The translations under genes were made by a program, and so were the position numbers. From contig QEKJ01000006.1 of assembly GCA_003096535.1 (NCBI GenBank), positions 62,001 through 126,000 on the forward strand: 64,000 nt of DNA. Reading direction: 5' to 3'. Source of the stretch: Agathobaculum butyriciproducens. Lineage in GTDB: Bacteria; Bacillota; Clostridia; Oscillospirales; Butyricicoccaceae. A model generated the notes under the pieces. That model was not told the origin of the DNA, did no database searches, and saw only the letters and a program-made list of their open reading frames with translations. This document shows, piece by piece, positions 858-63,274 of this stretch (the first letter of the stretch is position 1; every line of letters starts with the position of its first letter).

Positions 858-2519
858 TCAACGAACCACAGCGCCCTGATCCGCAGAGGTGACCAGACGC
901 GAGTAGCGGTACAACCAGCCGGACTTGACATTCGGCTCACGCGGAACGTACTTGGCACGGCGTGCCTCCAGCTCCTCGTCGGAAACATTTACGTTTACCT
1001 TGCTGTTCGGGATATCGATGGAGATGATATCGCCTTCCTGCACCAGACCGATCTCGCCGCCGGAAGCAGCCTCCGGCGAAACGTGGCCGATGGATGCGCC
1101 GCGGGACGCACCGGAGAAACGGCCGTCGGTGATGAGCGCAACCGTGGTATCCAGCTTCATGCCGGCCAGCGCAGAGGTCGGGTTGAGCATCTCGCGCATG
1201 CCCGGACCGCCCTTCGGGCCTTCGTAGCGGATGACAACAACATCACCCGGCACGATCTTGCCGTTGTAGATGGCGGAAATTGCGTCCTCCTCGCAGTCGA
1301 ACACGCGTGCCGGACCTTCGTGCACCATCATTTCCGGTGCAACAGCCGAACGCTTGACAACACAGCCGTTCTTTGCGATGTTGCCCCACAGAACAGCGAT
1401 GCCGCCGGTCTGCGAATACGGATTCTCGAGCGGACGAACGACCTCCGGGTTCTTGTTGACAACGCCTTCGAGGTTCTCACCGACCGTCTTGCCGGTGCAG
1501 GTGATGAGCGACAGGTCGAGGAAATCGCGCTTGGTCAGCTCCTTCATGATGGCCGGAACGCCGCCTGCCATGTAAAGCTGCTCAATGTGATGCGGGCCTG
1601 CCGGAGCCAGATGGCAGATATTCGGCACCTTGCCGGACAGTTCGTTCAGGGTCTCAAGCTGCAGTGGAACGCCTGCTTCGTTTGCGATTGCCAGCAGGTG
1701 CAGAACCGAGTTGGTCGAGCAGCCGATCGCCATCTCGCAGGTCAGCGCGTTGCGGAATGCTGCCGGCGTGAGGATGTCGCGCGGCTTGATGTCCTTCTCG
1801 ATCAGCTCCATGATCTTCATGCCGGCGTGCTTTGCCAGATGAATACGGGCAGCCGAAACCGCCGGGGTCGTGCCGTTGCCCGGCAGCGCCATGCCGATCG
1901 CTTCGGACAGGCAGTTCATCGAGTTTGCGGTGTACATGCCTGCACACGAGCCGCAGCCCGGGCAGGAATTGCACTCGGCCTCGTAGAACGTTGCCTCGTC
2001 CATCATGCCGGCCTTGTAAGCGCCGACCGCCTCGAAGGTCTTGGACAGGGATACCTCCTCACCGCCGAAATGGCCTGCCATCATCGGGCCGCCGGAAACC
2101 AGAATGGACGGAATGTTCAGACGAGCGGCAGCCATCAGCATACCGGGAACGATCTTGTCGCAGTTCGGGATGAGCACCAGACCGTCCAGCTGGTGCGCCT
2201 GTGCCAGCGTCTCTACGCTGTCCGCGATCAGCTCACGGCTTGCCAGCGAATATTTCATGCCGATGTGGCCCATCGCAATGCCGTCGCATACGCCGATGGC
2301 CGGAACGAGCACCGGCGTACCGCCTGCCATGCGAACGCCTGCCTTAACCGCATCCGCGATCTTATCGAGGTTGATATGGCCCGGGATGATCTCGGAATAC
2401 GCCGAAACCACACCGATGATCGGCTGATTCATTTCCTCGTCGGTCATACCGCAGGCGCGCAGCAGCGAACGGTTCGGCATGCGCTCGGGTCCTGCAGTGA
2501 TGTTGTCACTTCTTCTCAC
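858..2519 (-). CDS. ilvD: Dihydroxy-acid dehydratase
   Basis: This 553-residue protein matches the usual IlvD length. It dehydrates 2,3-dihydroxyisovalerate and 2,3-dihydroxymethylvalerate to the 2-keto acids of valine and isoleucine synthesis, in the cytoplasm, using an iron-sulfur cluster. Visible signatures are [13 protein letters not shown] around residues 118-130 and [19 protein letters not shown] around 183-201, which carry the cluster and Mg-binding residues, and GRFSGASRG near 465. It is the last gene of ilvB-N-C-D, reached after an unusually long gap of 334 bases that contains a strong hairpin followed by U residues. The start is preceded by AAAGGAGG. Confidence 0.97.
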
Positions 2520-2853
2520 GGGGATTTTCCTCCTTTGAAAGCAGTCCAGCAGACTGCCTGATAGAAAAAACGGGCGGACGGGAAAATCCGTCCGCCCGTT
2601 CGGGGTAACTAAAAGCTGACGATCAGCACGCGAAATGCTTCACGTCTAACCGCAACCAAAGGTTGCGGCAATCATTCGGCACACAAAGTGTGCCGTAAAA
2701 AGTCAGGACATGCGCCTGACTTTTTACACCCCGACTCAGCGCCCGTGGGGCGCGTCATTGGGGTATTGACCAGTGGTTTCTACGGAACCGCTGGTCATAT
2801 ATAGGGGGCTTTTGAAGCCCCCTATAAGAAATAGTCTCAAGCGGAGCGCGAGA
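2520..2853 (-). promoter_or_regulatory. Structured 334-base ilvC-ilvD intergenic region
   Basis: There is no gene here, but the minus-strand transcript could form a series of hairpins: GGGGGCTT/AAGCCCCC at about 2813-2826, ACCAGCGGTT/AACCACTGGT at 2769-2796, AAAGTCAGG/CCTGACTTT at 2698-2726, GGCACAC/GTGTGCC at 2678-2695, and CCGCAACC/GGTTGCGG at 2650-2668. A strong terminator-like hairpin at 2569-2600 comes last. I find no T-box consensus in it, so any attenuation mechanism is unproven. A promoter of its own for ilvD is possible. Confidence 0.5.
2569..2600 (-). terminator. Strong terminator hairpin inside the ilv operon, just upstream of ilvD
   Basis: On the minus strand an AACGGGCGGACGG arm pairs with CCGTCCGCCCGTT and is followed by T6. 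This is a textbook intrinsic terminator placed about 50 bases before the ilvD start codon rather than at the operon end. It either ends an ilvBNC transcript or acts as a conditional attenuator. Confidence 0.8.
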
Positions 2854-3861
<1,008 letters not shown>

Positions 3862-8339: not shown

Positions 8340-9090
8340 TGCTGAAATGGTGATTTGTTGCTTACGAAGCAAGCGGAATCCTGCCTGCCCGGCAGGGGCA
8401 CAAGAAGGAGAGAACCAAGGTTCTCTCCTTCTTGTGAATCATCCTTCTTCCTTAGAGGGTCTGACGCAGATTACCGATATGTGACCGCTGCGAAATAGAG
8501 GAACGGCAGAGGATTTTTTCTTCCGCAGAGACGCACTGCGTGCGCTCATGTATCCGCGTATTCGCAGCGTCAGATACCATTATTCTGCTACACAGGCGGG
8601 CAACTCTACACTGGGTGCGGCATAACAGTGCCGCACGATTCGTAAGCGCGTTATGATAGACAGGGCCTGCGAGGATAGATTGTACCGAACGCCTAAATTC
8701 GCAGGTGTCATCCGTTATAACGTGTTAAAGAGTTGCGCGACACGGGTATGTTGCGCCTGCAAAGATGAAACCGCAGGTGTAGCAGTAATGTATCTGACAC
8801 TGCGAATAAGTCGAGAAAGACACGGAAGAAAAAATCCTCTGCCGTTCCCCCATTTCGCAGCGGTCACATGTCGGCAATCTGCGCCAGACTAACTGACAAG
8901 GGAAAGGTAGGAGTCCAAAGAGGAAGGGAAACCGCAGGTGTCCCTTCCTTTTTGCCCCCGCAGCGGGCGCCGCACTCTCCCGTGCTCCGCAGAGCGCAAC
9001 TCTCCGCTTGATTTCAAGCGAATACCTCCCGTCCGTTAGGGGCGAACCCGCCTGCGGCAGTTCGTGTTCCCCAGTCATCCGGTGCAGGAA
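8340..9090. repeat. P-type large palindromic element, copy 1 (full)
   Basis: This fills the 8268-9210 gap. Two long arms are imperfect inverted copies of each other: 8393-8590 (containing GAACGGCAGAGGATTTTTTC) and 8770-8960 (containing its complement, GAAAAAATCCTCTGCCGTTC). Outer hairpins such as GGAAGGG/CCCTTCC followed by T5 (8929-8953) look like terminators at the ends. The core, 8600-8765, has hairpins GTGCGGCA/TGCCGCAC and GCGCGAC/GTTGCGC. No convincing reading frame is present. It matches 26945-27665 over its full length, but there the core is in the opposite orientation. Confidence 0.8.
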
Positions 9091-11052: not shown

Positions 11053-11178
11053 TGGAGATGAATGTGATGGTTCAACGTGTGCCATCCCTAACCATTCACC
11101 AACACTGCCGCAGGGGGGACCAGTGGTCGCCCACGCAGCGCCATATCTTTAATTTTCCATTCTCAATTCTCAATTTTT
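11051..11178. repeat. D-type dispersed repeat box D2
   Basis: The MATE-uppP gap starts with AATGGAGATGAATGTGATGG and ends with AATTTTCCATTCTCAATTCT, the complementary D-type termini. The interior has GGACCAGTGGTCGCCCACGC, a degenerate R-type hairpin. Confidence 0.6.
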
Positions 11179-11195
11179 ACCCATGAACGTAAAAC

Positions 11196-15334: not shown

Positions 15335-15479
15335 TATCATTTTGTGCGATACGCATTGTTTAGCAATGGTGCATGCGGTTTACCCGGTGCGCCAAGGTCG
15401 TACCCCAGGGTACCTTCTCTTGCGGCGTTGCCGCAATTCACCTTGCCGCACCCTACGGTAAAGTCCGTCATTAAATGAA

Positions 15480-23210: not shown

Positions 23211-23320
23211 AATGGAAAATTGAAAATGGAGAATTGAGAATTGCGGTATCGCGCACAGCGCGATGATTTAATCCCGCCTTTCAGGCGGCTCCTTCATTTT
23301 CCATTTTCCATTCTCAATTC
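23211..23320. repeat. D-type dispersed repeat box D3
   Basis: Termini AATGGAAAATTGAAAATGG and ATTTTCCATTCTCAATTC flank GCGGTATCGCGC, GCGCGATGATTTAAT, and CCGCC/GGCGG hairpins. The interior is nearly identical to D4 at 25054-25174, and the two lie on either side of glnS in the same orientation. Confidence 0.8.
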
Positions 23321-23330
23321 ATCTCTAACG

Positions 23331-25053: not shown

Positions 25054-25174
25054 GGAATTGAGAATTGAAAATGGAAAATTGAAAATTGCGGTATCGCGCT
25101 GCGCGCGATGATTTAATTCCGCCCTTTGGGCGGCTCCTTCATTCTCCATTATCCATTTTACATTTTCCATTATT
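25054..25174. repeat. D-type dispersed repeat box D4
   Basis: A near-copy of D3: the same D termini and GCGGTATCGCGCTGCGCGCG, ATGATTTAATTCCGCCC/GGGCGGCTCCTTCATT. It occupies the whole gltX-glnS gap. Confidence 0.8.
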
Positions 25175-26944: not shown

Positions 26945-27665
26945 CGGTTTTAATCGCTTGTTTTGCCGCTTGCGAAGCGAACGGAAATTGCGCTGACGCC
27001 GCGCGGGCGCACAAGAGGACAGACACCTGCGGTTTCCGCCCTCTTGTGAATCTCCCCTTTCCCTTAGATAGCCTGGCGCAGATTGCCGACATGCAACCGC
27101 TGCGAAACAAGGGAACGGCAGAGGATTTTTTCTTCCGTGTTTTTCTCAACCTATTCGCAGGGTCAGATACATTACTGCTACACATATCAGAGGGTCTCCG
27201 CAGGCGCGACATAGCAGTGTCGCGCAACCCGTTGGCACGTTGTACCGCACGGCACCTGCGATTTTAGGCGTTTGATACAATTTATCCTTGCAGGCCCTGT
27301 CTATCATAAAGCGCTAATAAATTGTTCGGCACTGTTATGCCGCACCCTGCGTAGAAGCCGATATGTGTAGCAGTAAGCTATCTGTGAACTGCGAAAAGGC
27401 GGAGAAAGACACGCTGTGGTAACCCGACTGCCGTTCCCCTATTTTGGAGCGGTCACATATAGGAAATCTGCGCCAGGCTATCTAAGGGAAAGGTAGGAGT
27501 TCAAAGAGGAAGGGAAACCGCAGGTGTCCCTTCCTTTTTGCCCCAGCGGCGGGCGCCGCAACGTTCCTGCCGTCCGCAGGCGGCACACTCCCCGCTGAGG
27601 TTCAGCGAAAAACGCCCCGCCCGTTAGGAGCGAACACGCTGACGCAGTTCGTGTGCCCCGGTCAC
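26945..27665. repeat. P-type large palindromic element, copy 2 (full)
   Basis: Fills the 26827-27718 gap. The flanks match copy 1 in the same orientation: left GCACAAGAGGACAG/CTCTTGTGAATC, right AAAGGTAGGAGTTCAAAGAG and GGAAGGG/CCCTTCC with T5. Arms are mutually inverted (27105-27185 and 27360-27470). The core segment (CACCTGCGATTTTAGGCG to GGCCCTGTCTATCATAA, 27252-27308) is the reverse complement of that in copy 1. No gene seen. Confidence 0.8.
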
Positions 27666-33442: not shown

Positions 33443-33489
33443 CTTTTTGTTTACAGAAAATGCAGCTATGTTCATTCTCCATTTTCCAT

Positions 33490-34467
33490 TCAGAATTTAC
33501 CGCTTCTCCCATGTCCGCCGCTGCTGGTATGGCTGACGCTGCCGGAAAATCCGGCTCCGCCGTGACCGCCGCCGGTCGAATTGTTATTATTGTCATTCCG
33601 CGGAATCTGCCGCCGCTTCTGCGAGGTATAACGGTAAATATCGCGGCTGAGCGTCAGCTTGAGACCGCCGTTTCCCACATACTGGTTTGCGGTCGTCTGC
33701 GTACGCACGGATTTCATCTGCGAGCGGAACACCATGCACACGATGAGTGCAATGACGCACGAAATGAGCAGCGACAGGCCGAATGCACCGCCGAGCGAAA
33801 ACGAATCGTCCGCTGTGTCTTCCTGCGTACTGTCCGAAATCTCGACCTCATTATGCACCGGCACACCGGCTTCGCCGCCTTTGGCGACATGCTGCAAATA
33901 CCACTCACAGCCGGAAACGAAGTCCGAAAAGCCGCCGTACCAGTCGTCGTTTCCGAAATTATCCAGGAAATACGACTCCAAATCCTGCTGGACCGCATCG
34001 CTGAAAATCTCCTCGGCTTTCGCGCCGTGCGCATAGGTCGCAAAATCGCGGTCATCCAGACTGATGAGCAGCGCCACGCCGTCGCCGTCCTCGCTCGCAC
34101 CCAGATCAAGCTCGTTGTAGAGCTGCTCCGCCGCGTCGTAAGCGCCGTCTCCGTACGGCGTGTAGTCGTCAATCGTGATGATGCCGATGCCGATGCTGTA
34201 TTTCTCCGCGATCGCCCTGGTCTTTTCCTCGAGCGTGTCAATCTGGGTCTGCGTCAGCACCTCTTCATAGTCGAACACGCGCGGCTTGTCTGCCGACGGG
34301 TCAATCGAATCCGTACCGCCGAGCGGTGCGGTCTGGTCAGTTTCCTCCGTCTGGGTGGTCGAGGTGTCGCTCTCATCCGTTATATCGTCCTCAACCGCAA
34401 AGGCCGGAAACAGCAGCAAAAGCACTGCCAAGAGCGCAGCCAGACGCAGTTTTCTCTTGTTTTTCAT
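33490..34467 (-). CDS. TPM-domain membrane protein, YdjH-like
   Basis: 325 residues: signal peptide 1-24, a TPM domain about 60-190 (DYEEVLTQTQIDTLEEKTRAI-like start and ISLDDRDFATYAHGAK), a membrane helix near 230-248 and a Gly/Ser/His-rich tail (GGGHGGAGFSGS) with poly-Asn before it. TPM proteins include the Psb32/YgcG group; B. subtilis YdjH is the match by context. It starts 13 bases after the zinc-ribbon gene. In B. subtilis the ydjFGHI operon is a membrane-stress module. The D-type repeat end reaches its stop codon. Confidence 0.82.
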   Translation of the reverse strand: MKNKRKLRLAALLAVLLLLFPAFAVEDDITDESDTSTTQTEETDQTAPLGGTDSIDPSADKPRVFDYEEVLTQTQIDTLEEKTRAIAEKYSIGIGIITIDDYTPYGDGAYDAAEQLYNELDLGASEDGDGVALLISLDDRDFATYAHGAKAEEIFSDAVQQDLESYFLDNFGNDDWYGGFSDFVSGCEWYLQHVAKGGEAGVPVHNEVEISDSTQEDTADDSFSLGGAFGLSLLISCVIALIVCMVFRSQMKSVRTQTTANQYVGNGGLKLTLSRDIYRYTSQKRRQIPRNDNNNNSTGGGHGGAGFSGSVSHTSSGGHGRSGKF

Positions 34468-40416: not shown

Positions 40417-40986
40417 ATGAGTGACATTTCCAGCAAAACTGCGCCGCGCAGCCGTTTTTCCGTGCGCGAGATCTGCTATTCCGGCCTGTTCGCAGCGGTC
40501 ATCGCGATCATGGCGCAGATTTCCATTCCGATGCCCGGCGGCGTACCCATGACCATGCAGACGTTCGCAATCACACTGGCGGCTGTCGTACTCGGCGCCA
40601 AGCTGAGCACGGTTTCAAGCGTAATTTATCTGCTGCTCGGTGCCGTCGGCGTACCGGTGCTTGCGAACTTTTCCGGCGGTTTTGACAAGTTTATCGGTCC
40701 TACCGGCGGTTTTCTGATCTCCTTCCCGCTGATGGCGTTTATCATCGGCTGGGGCGCCGACCACCGTCATGCATTCCGCGGCGCGTATGTACTCGCACTG
40801 ATCGTCGGCACGATTGCCAACTATGTTGTCGGCACGGCGATGTTCTGCGTACTCATGAACAGCTCGATCGCCGCAGGCGTGACCGCATGCGTGCTGCCGT
40901 TCATCCCGACCGCTATCATCAAGGCTGTTCTTGCAACCGTGATCGGCTTTCTCGTTCGCAAGCGCATCCCGGGGCTCAAGGCATGA
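40417..40986 (+). CDS. bioY: Biotin transporter substrate-binding component BioY
   Basis: 189 residues, six membrane helices. The S-component signature MPGGVPMTMQTFAITLAAVVLGAKLS is at residues 39-64 and GPTGGFLISF at about 96. BioY captures biotin and works with the shared ECF module (not in the window). No biotin biosynthesis genes are nearby, which hints at uptake dependence. The stop overlaps the start of the DUF1284 gene (ATGA), so they are coupled. GAGGAGGAA precedes the ATG. Confidence 0.95.
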   Translation: MSDISSKTAPRSRFSVREICYSGLFAAVIAIMAQISIPMPGGVPMTMQTFAITLAAVVLGAKLSTVSSVIYLLLGAVGVPVLANFSGGFDKFIGPTGGFLISFPLMAFIIGWGADHRHAFRGAYVLALIVGTIANYVVGTAMFCVLMNSSIAAGVTACVLPFIPTAIIKAVLATVIGFLVRKRIPGLKA

Positions 40987-41372
40987 TCCGGCTGCGCCCG
41001 CATCATCTGCTTTGCACACAAGGCTACTCCGGCAAGGGCTATAGCACAGAATTTGTGCAAAATATGAGTGCAATTGTGCATTCTCTACGAAATGTACCGG
41101 GAACCCGAATCCGGCTTGTCTTTGGTTCGGATTCTCTGTGCGCGCACTGCCCGCACCACACCGCTGACGACCTGTGCGAATCACAGGAAAAGGTCTCTCG
41201 TTTTGACCGAAAGACGGTCGAATACTTTGATTTGCACGAGGGCGAGTACGTTTATCAGGACCTGATCCGTGCTATCGACACACAAATGACTCCGGCCATG
41301 CTGGAGGATATTTGTCGCGGATGTGCATGGTACCCCGTCAGCGCCTGCAAAAAGAATATCTGCGGAAAATGA
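40983..41372 (+). CDS. DUF1284 cysteine-rich protein
   Basis: A start at 40983 overlapping the bioY stop gives 129 residues. The N-terminal IRLRPHHLLCTQGYSGKGYS motif (residues 2-21) and eight cysteines, including CAHCPHH and CRGCAWYPVSACKKNIC, match DUF1284. The spacing suggests an iron-sulfur or zinc site. The family function is unknown; coupling to bioY suggests a biotin- or cofactor-related role (inference). Its stop is followed four bases later by the E1 hairpin. Confidence 0.82.
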   Translation: MIRLRPHHLLCTQGYSGKGYSTEFVQNMSAIVHSLRNVPGTRIRLVFGSDSLCAHCPHHTADDLCESQEKVSRFDRKTVEYFDLHEGEYVYQDLIRAIDTQMTPAMLEDICRGCAWYPVSACKKNICGK

Positions 41373-41375
41373 AAT

Positions 41376-41693
41376 GAGGCACACCGAAAGGTGTGCCTCT
41401 GAGGCTGTCGAAAAACTTCGTTTTCCGAACAGCCTCTCGCTCGAAACCACGCTTTCGAGCGAATCTCGAAGAAAAAACGCGTCCTGCGGACACATTTTTT
41501 CTTCCCTTGTATAAATTCCGAGATACACAAGGTGAATTGCCGCATAGCGGCAAGAGAGGGTGGCCTGGGCCATGCTCCCGGAATTTATGAATTTGCAAAG
41601 CAAATTCGATTGAATGCGTGCTGCCGCACGAAGCATAAAAATCGAATATTGCTTTTTCGACAAGCTGTGAGGCACACCGAAAGGTGTGCCTCT
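41376..41693. repeat. E-type element copy 1 with flanking hairpin duplication
   Basis: A 268-bp element (41401-41668) is bracketed by two identical copies of a 25-bp hairpin, arms GAGGCACACC and GGTGTGCCTC, at 41376-41400 and 41669-41693. The element starts GAGGCTGTCGAAAAAC and ends TTTTTCGACAAGCTGT, giving partial terminal inverted repeats. No gene. About 75% identical to E2 in opposite orientation. The 41373-41858 gap otherwise holds the BlaI-type promoter. Confidence 0.8.
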
Positions 41694-44769: not shown

Positions 44770-44838
44770 ACTGTCATTTCCTCCTATCAAAGATTTCATT
44801 ACATTCTATGGTAAGAGGCCGAAAATGGTTACACATTC

Positions 44839-46116
44839 TCAATTCTCAATTTTCGCCAATACGCCGTCCTTGTGCAGACCGATAACCTTTACGGTGACCG
44901 GATGATTTTTCTCCGCCTTATCCTCTATATATACAGGAAAGCCGTAGCGTCCGTGCGCCGCCCACAGGCCGCCGGTCGGGTGCTCGGGCAGCGCGTACAG
45001 CGTGCGGCCGACAAACTGCTTTCGATAGACGATACTGCTTGTCTCCGCCACCTGCTTTGCCCGCTCGGCGCGGGCGGTTTTGGTCTGCTGATCGAGCTGA
45101 CCCGGCATGGCGGCCGCCTTTGTGCCCTCGCGTACGGAATACGGGAATACATGCACGGACGCGAACGCGCATCTCTCCAGAAAGGCCAGCGTCTGCGTAA
45201 ACTCGTCCTCGGTCTCGCCCGGAAAGCCGACAATCAAATCGGTCGTAACCGAGCAGTCCGGAAACGCACGTCTCAGCCGCTCGACACACCGGTAAAATTC
45301 CTCGCTCGTGTAGTGGCGGTTCATGCGCCGGAGAACGGTATCGCAGCCGCTCTGCATAGACAAATGAAAATGCTGTGCGAGATTGGCAAAGCCGGCAAGC
45401 CGTTCACAAAACGCATCGTCCACCGCCCGCGGGTCGAGGGAGCCGAGCCGGAACTGCACGTTCGGCTGCGCGGTCAGCAGCTTCTCCAGCAGCTCGGTGA
45501 GCGGCACCTGCGGCTCGAAGTCCTTGCCGTAGGACGCGATCTCGATGCCGGTCAGCACGATCTCGTGCACGCCCGCGTCAGCCAGCCGCGCCGTCTGATC
45601 GAGCGCCTGCTCGACCGGCAGTGAGCGCACTCGCCCTCTCGCATACGGAATGATGCAGTAGGTGCAGAAGTTGTTGCAGCCGTCCTCGATCTTGAGCAGC
45701 GCGCGCGTGCGGCCGTGCGGGATACCGGCAGGCAGAGTCTCAAAGCCGCTGTCCTCGCTCTCATGTACCTGTACGGCCTGTCCGCTGACGGCCTGCTCGC
45801 ACAGGCCGATCACCTGCGCCCTGTTCCTGGTACCGCAGATGAGGTCGATCTCGCCGGTGGCGCGGACACGCTCCGGATCGGTCTGTGCAAAGCAGCCGCA
45901 CGCCGCGATAACCGCGTTCGGATTGTCTCTCCGCAGCTTGTGGAACGCGCGGATATTCTTATGGTCGGACACCGATGTTACCGTACAGGTGTTGACGATC
46001 ACGGCGTCCGCGCCCTTATCCACGATCTCATGTCCGCGCGCCTGCGCCAGCTGACTGAGCGCCTGCGTCTCAAATAAATTAACCTTGCAGCCCAAGGTGA
46101 AAAAAGCAAATTTCAC
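44839..46116 (-). CDS. mtaB: tRNA t6A37 methylthiotransferase MtaB
   Basis: I chose a GTG start at 46116 (codes VKFAFFTLGCKVN), with AAAGGA ten bases upstream, because the upstream open frame has no family resemblance; this gives 425 residues. It is a radical-SAM methylthiotransferase converting t6A37 to ms2t6A37. The N-terminal UPF0004 domain has cysteines in GCKVN, NTCTVT and CGCF; the radical-SAM motif is CNNFCTYC; a TRAM domain is at the C-terminus. The last codons and stop (KIEN) are formed by a D-type repeat end. Confidence 0.93.
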   Translation of the reverse strand: MKFAFFTLGCKVNLFETQALSQLAQARGHEIVDKGADAVIVNTCTVTSVSDHKNIRAFHKLRRDNPNAVIAACGCFAQTDPERVRATGEIDLICGTRNRAQVIGLCEQAVSGQAVQVHESEDSGFETLPAGIPHGRTRALLKIEDGCNNFCTYCIIPYARGRVRSLPVEQALDQTARLADAGVHEIVLTGIEIASYGKDFEPQVPLTELLEKLLTAQPNVQFRLGSLDPRAVDDAFCERLAGFANLAQHFHLSMQSGCDTVLRRMNRHYTSEEFYRCVERLRRAFPDCSVTTDLIVGFPGETEDEFTQTLAFLERCAFASVHVFPYSVREGTKAAAMPGQLDQQTKTARAERAKQVAETSSIVYRKQFVGRTLYALPEHPTGGLWAAHGRYGFPVYIEDKAEKNHPVTVKVIGLHKDGVLAKIEN

Positions 46117-48867: not shown

Positions 48868-49136
48868 CGGCGGTGGGCAAAAAGGAAGGGACACCTACGG
48901 TTTGCCCGTAGGCTGCTAAACATCGTTCCCGCGCCGTGCGCGGATTAAATGAGTGCCCTTCCTCTTTGAACTCCTCCCTTTCCCTTGTTTCCTAATCTGA
49001 CGCATACCAGAGACCGGCGACCGCTTCGAAAAGGAAAACGGCAGTCGGGTTACTCTTGCGTGTCTTTCTCCGCCTATCCGCAGTTCACAGATAATCTACT
49101 GCTACACATATCGGCTACTCTCCGCAGGCGCAACAC
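48868..49136. repeat. P-type element, partial copy 3 (right arm, reverse orientation)
   Basis: The sequence from GGGCAAAAAGGAAGGGACAC through CTTTGAACTCCTCCCTTTCC, ACGGCAGTCGGGTTACTCTT and GCTACACATATCGGCTACTC is the reverse complement of the right arm of the P copies at 27360-27540. An insertion (CGTGCGCGGATTAAATGAGT) interrupts it. Ends at 49136, followed by an E-like fragment (CACAAGGTGAATTGCCCGAA) and a D-type end at about 49218-49247. Confidence 0.7.
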
Positions 49137-49263
49137 AAGGTGAATTGCCCGAAGGGCAGGAGAAGCCACACTGGGGTGCCCCGCCGTGCAACCCATCTGC
49201 ACATTACTTCACCGCAGGGTCAATCTCCATTTTCTATTCTCAATTACTGCTTCGCATACGAAA

Positions 49264-49579
49264 AAAGCACCGCTTTCGCGGTGCTTTCAGTCTGTCGATA
49301 AAGTCAATCTATCGTTTTTACTTTTCGTGCGGCAGCACGCATAAAATAGAATTTGCACAGCAAATTCATAATTCCCGGGGGCGTGGCCCAGGCCACCCTC
49401 TTTTGCCGCTATGCGACAATTCACCTTGTGTACCTCGGGAATTATACAAGGGACGAAAAATTGTGCCCGTAGGGCGCGGCTTTTCGTCAAGATTCGATTG
49501 AAAGCGTGGTTTCAATCGAGAGGCTGCTCGAAAAACGGAGTTTTTCGACAGCCTCAAAGCACCGCTTTCGCGGTGCTTT
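49264..49579. repeat. E-type element copy 2 with flanking hairpin duplication
   Basis: A 268-bp element (49288-49555), in reverse orientation, is bracketed by identical 24-bp hairpins, arms AAAGCACCGC and GCGGTGCTTT, at 49264-49287 and 49556-49579. The right hairpin, followed by TTCGC on one side and T-rich on the other strand, is the natural terminator of the NSS gene. Core similarity to E1 includes GGGTGGCCTGGGCCA and TGCGTGCTGCCGCACGAA. No gene. Confidence 0.8.
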
Positions 49580-57266: not shown

Positions 57267-57370
57267 GAGCGTTCCCTCCTGCTATCAGCCTATGCACGGA
57301 GGGAATACTTTGTTAGTATATAGTATAGCACAATTGTTCGGATAAGTAAACCGAGCAGAAAATCCGGGGA

Positions 57371-57437
57371 TAATTGAAAATTGAGAATGGAGAATGAACG
57401 TGATGATAGAACGATAACCAAATTTCATTCTCCATTC
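57371..57437. repeat. D-type dispersed repeat box D8
   Basis: Left AATTGAAAATTGAGAATGG and right TTCATTCTCCATTCC termini enclose only about 30 bases. Confidence 0.65.
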
Positions 57438-62761: not shown

Positions 62762-62924
62762 AATATTCCTCCTATACGGCATACTCCCATAGTATACGGG
62801 TTTGTCCCCTTGTTGTCAAGTGTTTTCTCGAATTTTTTTATTTTTTACGAGATTTTTCTTTTCCAGACAAATTTGACACCTGGCAAAAGGAGTTTCCGCA
62901 GGATACATTCAATGATTACGCTAT

Positions 62925-63263
62925 ACCGTAGGGTGCGACGACCTCGGCGCACCGTTTCTAACGATTGGTGCACGTTATCCCGTAGGGGCGAGCAGTGCTC
63001 GCCCACGCATCCGTTTAACCATAGCGCAGGAGGCCAATGGCCTCCCCTACGGGGGTAACATTATGCAAACGGTTTACCAATAAATATGTGCCTGTCGTTA
63101 TCGGTTTGCGGGCGAACAATGTTCGCCCCTACGGAGCAGATTGTACAGACCGGATAGATACGGTGCGCCGTGGTCGTCGCACCCTACGGTATCCATTCAG
63201 CATAAAATTGAAACGGAGAAACATCGTAAACCGTCACGGTAATTCTCCATTCTCAATTTTCCA
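62925..63263. repeat. Cluster of R- and D-type repeats in the 62762-63347 gap
   Basis: At least four REP-like hairpins: GGTGCG/CGCACC at 62933-62960, GTAGGGGCGAGCAGTGCTCG at 62983-63002, AGGAGGCCAATGGCCTCC at 63028-63045, and GGGCGAACAATGTTCGCCCC at 63112-63131, then CGCACCCTACGG at 63180 and a D-type end at 63240-63263. No gene seen. Confidence 0.75.
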
Positions 63264-63274
63264 TTCGGCACAAG

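Follow-up and report, generated by a model that had tools for sequence, protein, structure and literature searches.

The window, a stretch of 64,000 nucleotides from Agathobaculum butyriciproducens (contig QEKJ01000006.1), contains at two places a gene-less element, named E here, which stands between two copies of one hairpin (Table 1). The first copy, E1, is neighboured on one side by a DUF1284 gene (40983-41372), whose stop codon ends 2 nt ahead of the left hairpin, and on the other side by a gene for a penicillinase-repressor-type regulator. The two hairpin copies around E1 (TGAGGCACACCGAAAGGTGTGCCTCT) are identical, as the initial annotation had noticed, but they extend over 26 bp and not 25 bp; the block between them measures 267 bp, or 268 bp when the repeat is taken as 25 bp. 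The partial terminal inverted repeats described for this block were found as well, with GAGGCTGTCGAAAAAC at the left end and CAGCTTGTCGAAAAAGC, read inward, at the right end. The second copy, E2, is 84% alike to E1 across 260 nt, and its two flanking hairpins are identical to one another (AAAGCACCGCGAAAGCGGTGCTTT). Two similar elements with unlike hairpins show that the hairpin does not belong to the element, and the earlier view that it represents the target is borne out by these flanks. The left hairpin of E1 resembles a terminator on the minus strand, with a 10-bp stem followed by ATTTCATTTT, and the 1.6-kb stretch around E1 holds 7 terminator-like sites vs. 2.0 expected. An empty E1 site was not found with a DNA query from the upstream genes, which gave only 3 short and weak matches in other genomes of the genus.

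Table 1. Elements E1 and E2, their flanking hairpins and internal features, in window coordinates.
Feature	Position	Strand	Basis
Left copy of target hairpin, 26 bp	41375..41400	+	Same letters as 41668-41693
E1, non-coding mobile element (putative MITE), 267 bp	41401..41667	+	In the same genome, 13 of 15 main loci (L001-L015) lie between paired hairpins
End hairpin H1 of E1: terminal repeat GAGGCTGTCGAAAAAC and its complement	41401..41436	+	Fold; helix 1, 98.0% of cells paired (n = 32 elements)
Internal hairpin H2 of E1, covarying across the genus	41437..41462	+	Helix 2, 100% of cells paired; 3 pairs changed on both sides
45-bp module in the tip of hairpin 4 of E1	41528..41572	+	E1 vs. L004; missing from 222-bp copies
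Right copy of target hairpin, 26 bp	41668..41693	+	Identity with 41375-41400
Hairpin copy on one side of E2, 24 bp	49264..49287	-	Sequence comparison
E2, 268-bp copy of the element of E1	49288..49555	-	Sequence comparison with E1
Hairpin copy on the other side of E2, 24 bp	49556..49579	-	Sequence comparison

In the genome from which the window was taken (2.8 Mb, 57 contigs), 44 matches to E1 were listed. Ten were near full length and several were partial; the remaining ones formed a tail hitting the 45-bp internal module or one internal hairpin, and many of them covered the 45-bp module only. At the main loci, the two copies without a repeated hairpin on both sides, L014 and L015, are truncated. 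The size of E ranges from 161 to 273 bp. Its 222-bp form was matched in 23 of the 25 genomes sampled from the genus, which is probably Agathobaculum, and E accounts for an abundant repeat of gut clostridia, with 46 and 47 matches, fragments counted, in two of these genomes (G003 and G004, respectively). A second subfamily of E (L041, L021, L022, L023) has different second and third hairpins and a similar hairpin 4, and its member L041 also lies between paired hairpins.

The 45-bp module (CAAGGTGAATTGC, a small hairpin, then the GCAAGAGARGGTGCCCTGGGG type) occupies the tip of hairpin 4 in both E1 and E2. In the window it occurs, besides its place in E1, at 15446 (minus strand), 49135 and 49429 (minus strand), and elsewhere at L020, L024-L027 and L030. 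It is also present within other, unrelated repeats of the same genome, and may constitute a micro-element nested in hairpin tips. One such host repeat is represented in the window by an inverted pair, ATACCGTAGGGTGCGACGACCTCGGCGCACCG, at 62923-63192. Three related repeats, dispersed and several hundred bases long, contain inverted pieces and represent another family (8419-8974, 27031-27560, 48875-49135). Also, AT-rich tracts of the CATTCTCAATTCTCCATT type were observed at 566-802, 11149-11184, 23211-23328, 25056-25171, 33471-33504, 44834-44860, 49219-49252, 57368-57404 and 63234-63272.

The junctions were measured by a script that took the element end and the direct repeat outside it at 105 related loci from the genus genomes, a hairpin repeat being defined by a stem of at least 6 pairs and a repeat of at least 18 bp. 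A direct repeat was present at 65 of the 105 loci, and 59 of these fold and reach both thresholds. They represent 56 distinct sequences of 18-44 bp (median 28), as the L005 row measured the L003 element and as L080/L081 and L319/L320 are the same sites. The 46 loci below the thresholds include truncated copies and copies at contig ends. By chance, such repeats are rare: when the left flank of one copy was paired with the right flank of another, a repeat of at least 18 bp appeared in 3 of 577 pairings, doubled sites included. Copies with a paired hairpin of their own, for which the initial annotation had proposed to search, were thus encountered across the genus, and the 59 loci gave no case of a constant hairpin common to different copies. 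The latter observation bears on the reading in which the hairpin belongs to the element, as the end of a composite unit that makes no target duplication. The presence of a hairpin at both ends of 59 loci agrees with such a unit, but one family of elements surrounded by 56 different hairpins speaks against it.

The junction lies at most 1 nt from the foot of the stem in 47 of the 59 loci on the 5′ side and in 48 on the 3′ side, and no unpaired base separates stem and junction in 35 and 40 of them, respectively. The span of the hairpin correlates with the length of the repeat (0.81, 59 loci), the measured repeat being longer than the hairpin in some rows (e.g., L009, L271, L275, L278, L321). A duplication of fixed length is ruled out by lengths of 18 to 44 bp that track the hairpin.

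The comparison of empty and filled sites was possible between G003 and G004, which are close relatives (98-99% identity in the flanks of three common copies). Among 15 loci of G003, these 3 were common with G004 and L346, whose flank consists of repeats only, was omitted, leaving 11 flanks that were searched in G004. L326 proved to be the L324 site and L336 was unmatched in G004; of the 9 compared, L334/L361 gave no alignment of the left flank, and 8 pairs were finally aligned on both flanks. The element was absent from G004 in all 8. In 7 pairs, the two flanks, when aligned to the empty site, overlap by a whole hairpin, of 44, 29, 28, 34, 24, 30 and 29 bp; in the eighth (L350/L357), the overlap is only 12 bp and lies in the 3′ arm of the hairpin. 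At the seven sites, one hairpin is thus present when the element is absent, and two when it is there. This supports the earlier claim that insertion duplicated the hairpin, and supplies the single-hairpin sites in relatives that had been proposed as its check. Stem-loop replacement of the IS1272 type was not observed in these 7 pairs, where the hairpin was kept and duplicated. The seven empty sites, which already have one hairpin, refute the hairpin as a part of the element, and we give the composite unit practically no chance.

A different objection is that an ordinary transposase with a preference for palindromes makes a long, loosely variable stagger, and that the match with the hairpin is incidental. 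Other IS families do make duplications of variable length, and the site with 12 bp would fit this scheme. It appears improbable to us, as the duplication follows the span of the hairpin over 18-44 bp and as in most copies the junctions are found at the two feet of the stem.

The surroundings of the duplicated hairpins show a bias in composition. Over 54 of the 59 loci (5 rows were omitted from this count), the mean number of A in the 8 nt before the left copy is 4.1 and that of T in the 8 nt following the right copy is 4.2, vs. 1.65 expected in each case. At least 5 of the 8 letters belong to the A- or T-tract on one side at least in 39 of the 54 loci, and on both sides in 10. Judged from these A-tract and T-tract signatures, the target hairpins look like intrinsic terminators. 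The left hairpin retains the A-tract and the right hairpin the T-tract, and therefore transcripts from either side should cross E before they reach a hairpin with its U-tract. The behaviour of E suggests a route for the insertion of DNA at gene ends, with a hairpin retained on each side.

A transposase with ends matching those of E was sought among IS1182-type genes, using the profiles PF13751 and NF033551. In the order, 87 of 295 genomes had an IS1182 match and 22 of 295 had one over the cut-off. Thirty loci were fetched, of which 24 were validly testable, L235, L241-L244 and L246 being excluded for their position at contig ends. Whole-hairpin duplication was found around full IS1182 elements at 6 of the 24 tested loci (L220, L221, L222, L226, L227, L228). 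At the 18 others a whole-hairpin repeat was not detected, and most of these fall outside the clade of the hairpin type described below. The genome G220 is particularly informative as it holds five byte-identical copies of an IS of 1526 bp. Four of them are flanked by exact repeats (20, 21, 30 and 22 bp), a different hairpin in each case, which again argues against a composite unit with hairpin ends. The fifth copy (L248) has two different hairpins at its ends. The same situation was encountered in L218 and L223, which like L248 are full IS1182 elements with a hairpin at each end, the two hairpins being unlike. These mismatched hairpins are not explained by simple insertion, and could result from recombination between copies or from another insertion route.

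The ends of these IS, such as CAGCCTGTCGAAAAAG and CAGACTGTCAAAGAAC, resemble the ends of E. By inspection, the ends common to E and to the full IS consist of GAG or CAG, then NCTGTC(G/A)AA. The target choice and the junctions are also common to both, with duplication of the whole hairpin in each case; the exceptions are the 12-bp overlap among E and the copies with two different hairpins among the full IS. A tree of 23 transposases placed the eight rows labelled as hairpin type (L220-L224, L226-L228) in one clade with support 96/94, with L218 as sister, and all eight exceed the NF033551 cut-off. In this tree L223 and L224 were labelled as hairpin type although the copy shown has unlike end hairpins; L224 is the same place as L248, whose four sister copies have paired hairpins, and L218 was left unlabelled. 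At L212, in a KSB1 bacterium, both ends of an IS1182 element carry the exact sequence GAGACTGTCGAAAAACC, and hairpin duplication was not seen in its flanks. Also, the end GAGRCTGTCGAAAAAC marks other short hairpin-repeat elements in other clostridia (e.g., L100, L115, L140, L171, L192, L208); in a scan with this pattern, any direct repeat was present at 12 of 121 sites among the matches listed.

In the genus itself, transposases of this kind were found as fragments. The beginning of contig 9 of G003 encodes approximately 120 C-terminal residues of such a transposase; the end CTTTGACAGTCTG comes next and abuts a hairpin. Contig 9 of G005 holds the start of another one, beside a hairpin. The best match of the G003 fragment was L227/L228 (68% identity, 118 residues) and that of the G005 fragment was L221 (89% identity, 103 residues). 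PF13751 had 11 matches, which lie in 9 of the 25 genus genomes; a narrow end pattern revealed no E-type end beside these matches, and this pattern missed the end of G003. In the 12 genus genomes searched, the only hits over the IS1182 cut-off were in the genome that carries the window, and an IS1182 match was absent from 5 of them (G002, G004, G010, G016, G024), all of which have matches to E. Among these, G004 is assembled as one contig, has no IS1182 hit, and differs from G003 by recent insertions of E.

In the genome that carries the window, a transposase with E-type ends was not found; the reading of its end-like sites covered six loci of 42. Its two IS1182 genes (L061 and L062, IS1182 by model) were ruled out as partners by their other ends, GGGRCTGTCGCAC and GACTTTGTCAACAGCGCC. 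L061 (about 1267-3163) has a terminal hairpin of a design like that of H1 (GGGGCTGTCGCAC, a 4-nt loop and the complement), and duplication of a hairpin was not seen there, the flanks being AAATAA and TTATTT. Thus, the transposase with matching ends that the initial annotation suggested looking for occurs in complete elements within the order; two genus genomes have fragments of it, located at contig ends, and it was not found in the genome of E1 itself. Because full IS1182 elements have matching ends, make the same duplication and form one clade, E is most likely a MITE of the hairpin-targeting IS1182 clade.

The interior of E folds as a chain of about six hairpins. Covariation was analyzed on an alignment of 32 elements out of the 59, in which the orientation of L008 and L009 had been reversed; doubled sites, other subfamilies, copies of 161-164 nt and those containing the 45-bp module were left out. 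In five helices comprising 40 pairs, 98.4% of 1267 cells were standard pairs, the structure being predicted from the same alignment, and the pairing dropped to 32-51% when the helices were slid by 1-3 columns. Nineteen pairs changed on both sides, and such cells numbered 144 vs. 40.2 in shuffles. Further pair types numbered 35 vs. 29.8 in shuffles, a value reached by 7 of 500 shuffles. Counted from the table, G-U cells in paired columns were 14 of 1267. Since G-U cells are few, upkeep of the helices of E as palindromes at the level of DNA, through selection or through quasi-palindrome correction, is no less likely than a role as RNA.

Conserved covarying hairpins, together with the placement of E at terminator-like hairpins, would also be expected if E were copied via RNA, a structured transcript ending at a terminator being reverse-transcribed into another terminator. 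This route seems highly improbable, as both ends of E resemble DNA-transposon ends, as full IS with DDE transposases yield the same junctions, and as G-U cells are few. The Rfam scan of the window also argues against it: only a T-box and a tRNA were found at gathering score, both away from E, and the 7 weak hits around E1 were all under gathering scores.

We consider it likely that E1 is a non-autonomous MITE, moved in trans by a transposase of one IS1182 clade, for which a hairpin chosen by its shape is copied to both sides of the element. Several findings weigh against this reading: a transposase with E-type ends was not found in the genome of the window, 5 genus genomes have E and no IS1182 hit, the overlap of L350/L357 is 12 bp, the end hairpins of L218, L223 and L248 are unlike, and the hairpin repeat was not obtained at 18 IS1182 loci and 46 E loci. 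The transposase would recognize as target a hairpin-forming inverted repeat, often terminator-like, presumably extruded as a hairpin or a cruciform. The ends of the element would then be joined to different strands, one at each side of the stem base (the 5′ feet of the hairpin or cruciform), and as a result the joints would be staggered by the length of the hairpin. Gap repair would finally copy the whole hairpin to both sides of the element. The length of a duplication in DNA transposition is usually regarded as a property of the enzyme; here, the copied length seems to be set by the shape of the target and not by a fixed enzyme ruler. We regard as rather probable the wider proposal that in a clade of DDE transposases the duplication is measured by DNA structure, with extruded hairpins joined to the element at their 5′ feet, a hairpin left on each side and the U-tracts beyond the element. 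The same outcome would be obtained if the substrate were a hairpin on single-stranded DNA, on the lagging strand at a replication fork, and not a duplex cruciform; short imperfect terminator stems extrude poorly as cruciforms, which speaks for this variant, a possible one that we nevertheless hold to be somewhat unlikely.

ISfinder lists long duplications for some members of the IS1182 family. Other known systems share part of the features of E. MITEAba12 and the MITE of P. gingivalis are gene-less and have ends in common with a full IS; as portrayed in the accessible parts of the reports on bacterial MITEs, they are like E short and present in multiple copies. What characterizes E is the duplication of whole hairpins, which differ from site to site and vary in length, together with a covarying interior of multiple hairpins. 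Group IIC introns insert at terminator hairpins by means of a ribozyme and a reverse transcriptase, and are not known to make a target duplication. E likewise inserts at terminator-like hairpins, but the intron ribozyme and the reverse transcriptase were not seen in it: no intron family gave a hit at E1, and a reverse transcriptase gene would not fit into 267 bp. Palindromic extragenic targets are common to E and to the IS elements directed at REP palindromes, but the targets of the latter are, in the part of that paper available, members of a repeat family (PMC1525189), whereas the target hairpins of E differ in sequence.

Among the closest known systems are IS1272, TnSha1 and TnSha2, elements of the IS1182 family in staphylococci, which like E combine an IS1182-family transposase with stem-loop targets, those described in the accessible text of the two studies having no common sequence (PMC5678879, PMC4923244). 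Five of these target hairpins (A-E) were confirmed as terminators by RNA-seq data, according to the accessible sections of Furi et al. (PMC4923244). IS1272 deletes or replaces the terminator hairpin and does not duplicate its target, as far as the same accessible text goes (PMC5678879, PMC4923244), whereas at E the whole hairpin is duplicated. IS1182-related transposases are otherwise described, in the part consulted of a further article, as acting with or without target duplication (PMC12056078). The natural pairs of empty and filled sites reported here are thus of interest as the duplication follows the target hairpin, in a family whose member IS1272 deletes or replaces it, and they lead to a concrete prediction, joining at the 5′ or at the 3′ foot, on which two related transposases can be compared. 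In the available portion of Wan et al., whole-hairpin duplication appears as a hypothetical pathway only, and the present data correspond to the prediction of its pathway b (PMC5678879). Beyond this hypothetical pathway, a description of whole-hairpin duplication was not found in the accessible portions of the open-access literature. Thus, to the extent of these sources, the targeting of hairpins by the IS1182 family had already been published for IS1272 (PMC5678879, PMC4923244), and the duplication of the whole hairpin constitutes the new part.
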